A stretch of DNA of 64,000 nt from Pirellula sp. Its GTDB lineage: Bacteria > Planctomycetota > Planctomycetia > Pirellulales > PNKZ01. A program made the translations under genes and the position numbers. The notes beneath the pieces are model-generated. The model ran no database searches and was not told the origin of the DNA. It saw only the letters and a list, made by a program, of their open reading frames with translations. Below, piece by piece: positions 27,034 to 40,005 of the stretch. Location of the stretch: assembly GCA_013822735.1 (NCBI GenBank), contig PNKZ01000004.1:62001-126000 (forward strand), written 5' to 3'. Each line of letters starts with the position of its first letter. Within the stretch, counting starts at the first letter, position 1.

Positions 27034-27573
27034 TCAAGACGGGACGATCGCGTTGTCTGCGATATGCACAAGGCAGAATTCTTGCTGCTTCACATACCGG
27101 ACCGCACCGAGGATCGAAGTTTCGTCGTGCAGGTAGCGATTACTTCCTCCTTGCGTCCACCATTTGCGAATGCCGCATCGTGCGTTAAGGGCCGCCTGAC
27201 TGACGCCTTTGAGAACGCGCCGCACGGCCGGACCGTTGTCCGGGCACTTCATCACTACGAGATGCAGGTGATTGGCCATCACGGCACCTCGCACGATACT
27301 CCATTCGCGACTTCGCGCCGCTTCGATGAGGCCTTCGGCCACAACCAATGCGTCGTCGAGCCGAAGCAATGTCGTTTCGTGTGACTGCCGTGCTCGTGCC
27401 AGGGCCCGCGTCTCGGCATGGTCGGCATCCACGGGCGTACCGGGAATATTACGCAGCGGCTCAAAACCACCGCGGGCCGACCGTGTATTGGCGACGTAGC
27501 CTCGACGATCGCCGGGCAACCATGTCCCATAGCAGGTCCAAGTGATCAACAGCGCGAACGGTGCATCGTTCAT
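27034..27573 (-). mobile_element. REP-associated tyrosine transposase (RAYT, Y1/HUH family)
   Basis: 179 residues. RAYT proteins are single-strand-DNA nucleases of the IS200/IS605 kind that act on REP hairpins. The HUH motif is NHLHLVV (His102, His104) and the candidate catalytic Tyr is Tyr160 in GAVRYVKQQEF. The N-terminal LLITWTCYGTWLPGDRRG is typical of this group. The gene is enclosed by nearly identical family A REP elements: its stop is 12 bases from the left one and its start 24 bases from the right one. A third copy lies at 44259-44338. The frame is intact, so it may be active. Confidence 0.9.
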
Positions 27574-39464: not shown

Positions 39465-39539
39465 GTTTGGTCCCCTCTCCCCGACGGACAACCGTCCACC
39501 TCCACGACTTTGATTCGGGGAGAGGGATAGGGTGAGGGG
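39465..39539. repeat. Inverted repeat element, family B, left of the DUF559 gene
   Basis: 75 bases. Outer end GTTTGGTCCCCTCTCCCCGA, inner end TTCGGGGAGAGGGATAGGGT running up to the base before the gene's stop codon. The ends are themselves inverted (CTCTCCCCGA / TCGGGGAGAG), so the element can fold alone. Its reverse complement occurs at 39930-40005 with an unrelated middle. Confidence 0.9.
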
Positions 39540-39893
39540 CTAAGCAATCCGTTCTTCGCAAGCCGCCCTGATTGTTTGCAAAACGCTCTCGATACTCGCT
39601 TCAAGTTGCTGATTGCTAAATCGCAGGACTAATATCTTTCGTTCGGCCATCCAAGCGTCGCGTCTCTCGTCGTGCCCTTTACTTTCGGAGTGGGAATACC
39701 CGTCAAGCTCCACGACTACCCTCGCTATCGAACACCAAAAGTCGGCGAAGTACGGCCCTAACGTGTGTTGACGACGAAACTTGAAGCGGTTTTGTTTTCG
39801 GTCTCGAAGCCTGTTCCACAATGCGGCTTCAGCGTCGTTCATCTGCTTTCGCAGATTGCGAGCGAAGTCGCGTTGCTCGGAGTCTTCCCGCAT
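39540..39893 (-). CDS. DUF559 (Vsr-like endonuclease fold) protein inside inverted repeats
   Basis: 117 residues from the ATG at 39893; a GTG at 39911 would add 6. DUF559 proteins have the Vsr/PD-(D/E)xK-like nuclease fold. Seen, numbered from the GTG: NDAEAALWNRLRDRK at 25-39, FKFRRQHTLGPYFADFWC at 43-60 with Asp57, VVVELDGYSH at 66-75 with Glu69 and Asp70, then DAWMAERKILVLRFSN at 85-100. These are the family's conserved segments in order. It stands alone between dnaJ and groEL. The repeat elements touch its stop codon and lie 18-36 bases before its start. I infer a repeat-associated nuclease, not a restriction enzyme, since no methylase is near. Confidence 0.85.
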   Translation of the reverse strand: MREDSEQRDFARNLRKQMNDAEAALWNRLRDRKQNRFKFRRQHTLGPYFADFWCSIARVVVELDGYSHSESKGHDERRDAWMAERKILVLRFSNQQLEASIESVLQTIRAACEERIA

Positions 39894-39929
39894 GGAAGTT
39901 CTAATCGACACGAAAACCAGAACCGGCTC

Positions 39930-40005
39930 CCCCTCACCCTATCCCTCTCCCCGAATTTCAGCTGGTTCATCTCCGATGACATTCGTCGGGGAGAGGGGAC
40001 CAAAC
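39930..40005. repeat. Inverted repeat element, family B, right of the DUF559 gene
   Basis: 76 bases, the reverse complement of the left element at both ends (CCCTCACCCTATCCCTCTCC and the GGGGAGAGGGGACCAAAC end). The middle 30 bases are different. The two elements and the gene make a 541-base unit. Confidence 0.9.

Follow-up and report, generated by a model that had tools for sequence, protein, structure and literature searches.

A DUF559 nuclease gene enclosed by inverted triplex-type repeats in a planctomycete as a candidate repeat-nuclease unit

Background

The bacterial intrastrand triplex motif (TM, or TMECO) comprises a pyrimidine arm, a loop, a purine arm, a 3-nucleotide linker and a mirror-image third strand (Holder 2015, PMC4666352). 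The passages of that paper on genomic context report no common function for the genes that flank TM, and its DMS footprint gave no in vivo triplex signal for the motif. The paper also mentions an earlier study in which the motif had no promoter or terminator activity. A second kind of system is formed by RAYT genes and their REP or REPIN repeats (REPtrons). As described in two papers, a nuclease gene is linked to palindromic repeats, gene-free inverted doublets are dispersed, and different enzymes go with different repeat classes (PMC3116915, PMC8266576).

Several partial accounts concern the DUF559 family. YcjD of E. coli is described as a PD-(D/E)XK member whose profile detects Vsr (PMC1189080), and a section on cyanobacterial inteins assigns one DUF559 gene to the EDxHD homing endonucleases (PMC9403480). 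In Caulobacter, the DUF559 protein VsrA has been linked to a methylase phenotype (PMC12907096), and segments with transposase and DUF559 genes are reported as mutational and recombination hotspots in Legionella (PMC12308824). Among the matches listed in the open-access literature, no paper ties DUF559 or YcjD to triplex-type repeats.

A DUF559 gene between two inverted elements

The window is the whole 64,000-nucleotide stretch that was analysed (C4:62001-126000 of a 6.88-Mb genome). Its dnaJ-groEL spacer is home to a DUF559 gene for a 117-aa protein, enclosed by two inverted elements, with the following features:

39466..40004, no strand: whole inverted-ended unit, TTTGGTCCCC...GGGGACCAAA, in the dnaJ-groEL spacer
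39540..39893, minus strand: DUF559 (YcjD-type PD-(D/E)XK) nuclease gene, 117 aa, PF04480 profile match
39465..39539, plus strand: triplex-type element on the stop-codon side, 75 bp, third strand facing the gene
39473-39484 and 39515-39526: Y arm and R arm of the stop-side element, separated by a loop of ~30 nt
39527-39529 and 39530-39539: linker ATA and third strand GGGTGAGGGG of the stop-side element, the latter toward the gene
39930..40005, minus strand: inverted counterpart of that element, at the start-codon end of the gene, 76 bp, inner arm complementary to that of the first
39930-39939, 39940-39942, 39943-39954 and 39986-39997: third strand, linker, R arm and Y arm of the start-side element

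The protein matches PF04480 with an E-value of 1.3e-32 and 112.3 bits, against a gathering cut-off of 20.6. The initial annotation had described the gene as lying between inverted 75- and 76-bp elements conserved at their ends and not in their middles, and alignment of the arms agrees with it. The inner arms are complementary at 27 of 27 nucleotides and the outer arms (25 nucleotides) are 96% identical; the middles, of about 30 nucleotides, are unrelated to each other. The spacing that it gave is also found in the window sequence: the stop codon adjoins one element, and 36 bases lie between the ATG and the other. The unit ends in terminal inverted repeats, as in an insertion sequence or MITE; neither these unit ends (39466-40004) nor the identity of the element with the known triplex motif had been noticed in the initial annotation. 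No target-site duplication is visible by eye, and the empty sites are too diverged to give exact boundaries.

Read toward the gene, each element consists of CCCTCTCCCCGA, about 30 variable bases, TCGGGGAGAGGG, ATA and GGGTGAGGGG. The first and third of these pair as a hairpin, and GGGTGAGGGG mirrors the purine arm except that T replaces A at one position. Judged by its sequence, the core of the element is the triplex motif apart from the long loop: a Y arm, an R arm and a mirror third strand are present, and the loop is ~30 nt in both elements, where the TMECO list has short hairpin loops. A 23-nucleotide core pattern occurs twice in the window, and two matches were found in none of 100 shuffles.

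The repeats might be ordinary bidirectional terminators or mRNA-stabilizing hairpins beside a horizontally acquired gene. They are intergenic and hairpin-forming, the gene abuts one of them, and as single-stranded DNA both elements fold better than shuffles (z of -2.3 and -2.7). However, a terminator needs neither a third strand nor its match to the arm, related repeats occur in frame inside HsdR (below), and the motif had no promoter or terminator activity according to the account of Holder et al. (PMC4666352). We regard such a role as very improbable.

Copies and related units in the same genome

A pattern allowing up to three mismatches finds the element at 21 places in the genome, many of them inverted pairs with the third strands inward. 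Among these, L004, L006, L010, L011 and L016 are inverted pairs that enclose about 100 bp of another palindromic repeat, and thus are dispersed, gene-free doublets of the kind known for RAYT-type systems. The nested palindromes of these five units contain imperfect short words of a GCTGAAT type or a GTTATGA type. In the 18 complete elements recovered with a tolerant pattern at the loci of this genome, the arms are 94% identical, a value partly imposed by the pattern, and the loops are 30% identical without gaps (gapped score 0.43, versus 0.35 for shuffled loops). Another unit (L013, positions 1448-2312, contig C19) has ends as in the window unit and encloses an unrelated 184-aa ORF with no match in Pfam or NCBIfam.

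Three DUF559 genes are present in the genome, and each is accompanied by a repeat variant of its own. Short-loop TM copies flank the second gene (L001); the flanks of the third (L003) carry another triplex-type repeat (GGGAGAAGG, third strand GGATGAGGG), of which an exact pattern finds 37 copies. DUF559 genes at L003 and L035 lie within arrays in which alternately inverted triplex-type repeats recur every ~190-200 bp. The earlier picture of one 75-bp repeat therefore needs widening: the element is present as described, but the triplex motif has many variants, of which this is one, and a DUF559 gene tends to come with a variant of its own.

DUF559 genes are framed by their own inverted repeats

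Framing was scored as the best inverted match between 350 bp on each side of the domain, with no motif assumed and a threshold of 14. Loci were a sample of the planctomycete matches listed, to about E 5e-26; of 120 taken, 10 without a domain at E<1e-22 and one with a short flank were dropped, which leaves 109. The idea that DUF559 genes of the phylum lie between inverted repeats is strongly upheld: 92 of these 109 loci reach the threshold, versus 9 of 404 control frames shifted along the sequence by 1000 or 1150 bp, although the loci are related to each other, so that the counts are not independent, and overlapping or neighbouring copies were both retained (L028 with L049, L118 with L131). The remaining 17 loci are unframed, and four of the nine scoring displaced frames belong to duplicated or array loci (L028, L049 and, twice, L035). 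A first, overlapping set of loci gave 40 of 49 framed versus 6 of 169 displaced frames. Direct matches between the two flanks at this threshold are also common (54/109), as expected from palindromes.

Because displaced frames are shifted stretches that are not centred on genes, 50 other ORFs of the window served as a gene-centred control; they were picked mechanically and some are perhaps not genes. One of the 50 reaches 14, with a score of 30. This ORF (27034-27573, minus strand) is RAYT-like and lies in a frame of inverted repeats, and so it amounts to an unplanned positive control. The initial annotation had seen here a RAYT unit of the same plan as the DUF559 locus. The plan is indeed present, but the ORF matches the family model only weakly (NCBIfam REP_Tyr_transpos, E 1.5e-4, below the cut-off) and no Pfam match was found; the ORF possibly represents a divergent RAYT class.

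The frames are also specific to the gene. In 27 genomes with at least two loci, 61 of 71 DUF559 genes have two flanks that match each other, whereas flanks taken from different DUF559 genes in one genome match in 22 of 134 pairings. The own-flank mean exceeds the cross mean in 24 of the 27 genomes (p 1.5e-4). When flanks are paired between different genomes, 46 of 300 reach a score of 14, which implies that some repeat variants are common to several genomes.

Three simple sources of the framing were considered and rejected: chance, on the basis of the shuffles and displaced frames; a general excess of repeats beside any gene, by the 50 window ORFs; and one shared genome-wide repeat behind the flank matches, by the cross pairing within genomes.

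Similar frames are found outside the planctomycetes. Fifteen named records were picked for variety, with flanks unseen, among 46 with matches (33 listed), and L053 and L085 were added. Twelve of these 17 loci score at least 14, versus 0 of 34 displaced frames. They come from Azospirillum (two), Sphingomonas, Picosynechococcus, Neisseria, Sinorhizobium meliloti, Pseudanabaena, Deinococcus (two), Qipengyuania, a phage contig and an alphaproteobacterial MAG. Not all of the frames are triplex-like in appearance; those of the phage and of Azospirillum L219, at least, are not. Below the threshold are Synechocystis (score 12), which nevertheless has TM-like repeats on both sides, Klebsiella (10, with a repeat on one side), Sinorhizobium sp. 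M103, Methylobacterium and E. coli ycjD (9). The flank match in Sinorhizobium meliloti exceeds 100 bp. That DUF559 gene (L226, 1320-2032) has a ~128-bp doublet on each side, inverted and nearly identical, the right one shorter, and it is near an IS4-type transposase gene. We do not apply the rhizobial name RIME to the repeat, as no supporting passage was found in the portions of the literature consulted.

Perhaps DUF559 is cargo, namely a Vsr-like repair or defence nuclease that sits on a repeat mobilized by another enzyme and has no role in movement. The methylase phenotype of Caulobacter VsrA (PMC12907096) would suit such a protein, as would the other cargo between the same ends in L013. Framing of 92 of 109 DUF559 genes, versus 1 of 50 other window ORFs, is not easily explained in this way, and neither is the better pairing of a gene's own flanks than of flanks of the genome's other DUF559 genes. 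We therefore think a passive cargo quite improbable.

A shared triplex grammar with locus-specific sequences

Elements at different loci were compared with a detector for an arm, a loop, a purine arm, a linker and a third strand facing the gene. It was applied to 100 loci; nine more, in which the domain is far from the protein end, were left out. An element facing the gene occurs on at least one side in 71 of the 100 loci and on both sides in 41. For 182 displaced frames the corresponding counts are 14 and 3, and for 100 sets of shuffled flanks the count is 0. Outward-facing elements are present as well, in 31 loci on one side or more and in 10 on both. Given these outward-facing elements and the common direct matches between flanks, orientation toward the gene is not absolute.

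Arms and third strands vary together, as in AGAGGGGA with AGGGGTGT, AAGGAGGGGA with AGGGGAGGTT, TGGGAGGGG with GGGGAGGGT and GGGCGGGG with GGGGCGGG. A base-by-base table and its permutation are partly circular, as the elements were chosen partly for the fit of the third strand. When hairpins are chosen blind to the third strand, it fits its own arm better than the arms of other loci (p 7e-9, 65 distinct arms), and a mirrored third strand is better than an unmirrored one (40 for and 16 against, of 102; p 0.003). Although the detector left the length of the linker free to vary, 79 of 112 elements have one of exactly 3 nucleotides. The first base of the linker is mostly C upstream and mostly T downstream (25:12 versus 13:33, p 0.0004, in the partly circular element set). 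The repeats thus differ between loci and often keep the triplex grammar.

Distribution among planctomycete genomes

In 244 planctomycete genomes, a strong DUF559 match was defined as E<=1e-20 among the matches listed. Such matches occur in 24 of the 47 genomes with at least two copies of the canonical TM, versus 28 of the 197 others (Fisher 3e-7). The association is closer for one repeat, type A, which is present in 22 genomes: 20 of these have a strong DUF559 match, versus 32 of the 222 others (Fisher 2e-13), counted by genome and not by flanking gene. Type C repeats are found in three genomes, in two of which a DUF559 gene is flanked by type C.

Among the genomes with at least 10 canonical TM copies, 15 of 26 have no strong DUF559 among the matches listed, and these TM-rich genomes count against the repeat-nuclease reading. 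One such genome (G265) contains 171 canonical copies, and the 100 of these that are listed often form doublets about 110 bp apart. The stretch between two of its copies holds only short mechanical ORFs. A permissive DUF559 search of this genome gave three matches: two lie in ORFs of more than 1700 aa, and the third, short and partial, lies in an ORF of 209 aa.

Sites with and without the unit

The initial annotation had proposed that empty and filled dnaJ-groEL spacers be compared. It had also named two refuting outcomes, no excess of DUF559 genes beside the repeat and the same gene in relatives with no repeats around it; neither was observed in the form stated. Among eight orthologous spacers, only that of the window's genome has the gene and the repeat; both are missing from all seven relatives' spacers that were read (7/7), three of them from the same genus. 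A ninth genome (G004) was left out because its orthologue was not recovered.

DUF559 is also found in frame inside HsdR, between the HSDR_N and ATPase domains (by Pfam for L067). In these inserts, triplex-type or related repeats are translated on both sides of DUF559. Three inserts (L064, L067, L069) are at one site, and that of L061, with third strands outward, lies some 30 residues further on. Homologues free of the insert are L186, L187 and L190, as well as L188 and L189, which have a slightly longer linker.

In L090 and L101, DUF559 lies in an apparent intein without framing repeats. The host of the apparent intein in L101 is an ORF with an N6/N4 DNA methylase domain, and the Pfam intein and Hint matches there are below their cut-offs (E 1.4e-5 and 0.0012). 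The tentative reading as an intein also draws on intein block motifs.

E. coli K-12 contains ycjD and 23 copies of the motif. TMECO is presumably the same as E. coli box C. BoxC is listed in one paper as a known E. coli repeat family (PMC2267715). The flanks of ycjD include one motif beyond the stop and a degenerate one over the stop codon, and no TM-like sequence was seen on the sapF side. At 80% query coverage, ycjD lies at fabI-sapF in 3333 of 5426 genomes. The two strains read without ycjD beside fabI (L083, L084) have TetR regulator and RND efflux genes there instead. Five variant sites of three E. coli doublets have losses, internal deletions and a replaced spacer, with no clean excision, which supports instability and not a particular mechanism. 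In four E. coli doublets, one copy with a CCG or TCG linker is paired with one with a TTA linker; the third strands point inward in L210, L211 and L212 and outward in L213.

The enzyme

A model of the window protein based on an alignment has a pLDDT of 86.6 and replaced a single-sequence model with a pLDDT of 56.6. Its neighbours in the PDB by Foldseek are 3hrl (E 3e-6), a Neisseria protein resembling endonucleases, and the homing endonuclease I-Bth0305I (3r3p; E 5e-4, TM-score 0.65). Sequence profiles likewise match 3r3p (E 1.8e-5) and 3hrl (E 8e-36). Vsr, to which the initial annotation had likened the fold, is a weaker structural match (E 0.22); in the model, the closest fold of known function is that of I-Bth0305I. 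The window gene therefore has the catalytic fold of EDxHD homing endonucleases, but it is free-standing and is not located in an intron or intein. The match to NCBIfam PRK09767 (E 3e-25) is below the family cut-off.

In an alignment of 38 rows, D51, E62 and D75 are invariant and E22 and H68 are found in at least 90%; all five are present in the window protein. By analogy, we assume that these five residues form the active site. To our knowledge, PD-(D/E)XK nucleases do not join strands themselves.

How the unit might spread

We consider it somewhat more probable than not that the locus is a RAYT/REP-like repeat-nuclease unit (a REPtron) built of unrelated parts, whose enzyme would recognize and cut its own repeat. 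This reading is drawn from the framing, the shared grammar with locus-specific sequences and the multi-copy dispersal; from the presence or absence of the whole unit at one site and the occurrence of DUF559 inside another gene; and from the fold and the conserved putative active site. Several points weigh against it besides the TM-rich genomes: the 17 unframed loci, the inconstant orientation of the elements, the one-sided motif at E. coli ycjD, the lack of a visible target-site duplication, the absence of a known strand-joining activity in PD-(D/E)XK nucleases and the negative in vivo footprint of Holder et al. In this reading, the nuclease, a DUF559 protein whose fold is related to that of homing endonucleases, would have its gene between two inverted copies of a triplex-type repeat that is its own. 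It may recognize this repeat as a double strand, or as a hairpin or triplex on an exposed single strand, and would cut at or beside it. Host repair and recombination might then disperse the complete unit and, in trans, inverted doublets of this repeat that lack the gene, much as RAYT presumably does for REP.

The main rival is homing. Perhaps DUF559 cuts empty doublets and is copied between their arms, which serve as homology, while something else moves the doublets; the pairing of gene and repeat type would then reflect target specificity. That the nearest fold of known function belongs to a homing endonuclease is in keeping with this idea, as are the DUF559 domains in apparent inteins. The gene occupies the position that is the spacer in gene-free doublets, and the unrelated 184-aa ORF of L013 occupies the same one. 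Homing also explains TM-rich genomes without DUF559 better than a repeat-nuclease unit does. On the other hand, no waiting doublet is found in the seven empty dnaJ-groEL spacers or the five insert-free HsdR genes, and repeats of types A and C hardly occur outside genomes with DUF559 (20/22 and 2/3). No other mover was found, in a search that was not systematic. Homing explains the empty sites and the confinement of types less well than a repeat-nuclease unit does, and we judge it unlikely, though less so than a cargo role. That DUF559 moves its repeat, rather than homing into it, is what we infer.

The type-specific framing points to a candidate enzyme whose link to the repeats can be tested, also in E. 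coli K-12. It suggests that DUF559 is the missing partner of a widespread and unexplained repeat family. A broader proposal, which we offer only tentatively, is a new class of mobile element whose ends would be seen by DUF559 as intrastrand triplexes (or in duplex form), with enzyme and sequence diversifying together; this could explain the spread of orphan TM/TMECO sequences over several phyla. If the repeat-nuclease reading is true, DUF559, which Pfam still lists among its domains of unknown function, would gain a role, and the unit would be a case in which DNA in three-stranded form may serve as a recognition signal in biology.

Comparison with known systems

The window protein belongs to the same family as E. 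coli YcjD and NGO0050 (3hrl). In contrast to the window gene, which is framed on both sides, ycjD has TM-like sequence at its stop side only. EDxHD homing endonucleases such as I-Bth0305I share the fold, whereas the gene described here is free-standing and framed by repeats.

The repeat resembles TM/TMECO in its core, CCCTC(T/G)CCCC - loop - GGGGAGAGGG - NNN - GGGTGAGGGG, and in being multi-copy, intergenic and partly arranged as inverted pairs, as in E. coli (PMC4666352). It differs in its loops of ~30 nt, where the table of that paper has loops of a few nucleotides, and in its link to DUF559, where the paper's account of the motif gives no linked mobility gene (PMC4666352).

The original suggestion of a RAYT-like repeat-nuclease unit fits in anatomy, but the parts are unrelated to those of RAYT. 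As in the RAYT/REP and REPIN systems, a nuclease gene is framed by palindromic repeats, gene-free inverted doublets are dispersed, and different enzymes accompany different repeat classes (PMC3116915, PMC8266576). RAYT (TnpA_REP) is an HuH enzyme; in place of an HuH motif and a catalytic Tyr, only DUF559 was found here, which has the different, PD-(D/E)XK nuclease fold. Finally, REP is a hairpin, whereas the repeat of the window unit is a hairpin with a mirror-image third strand.
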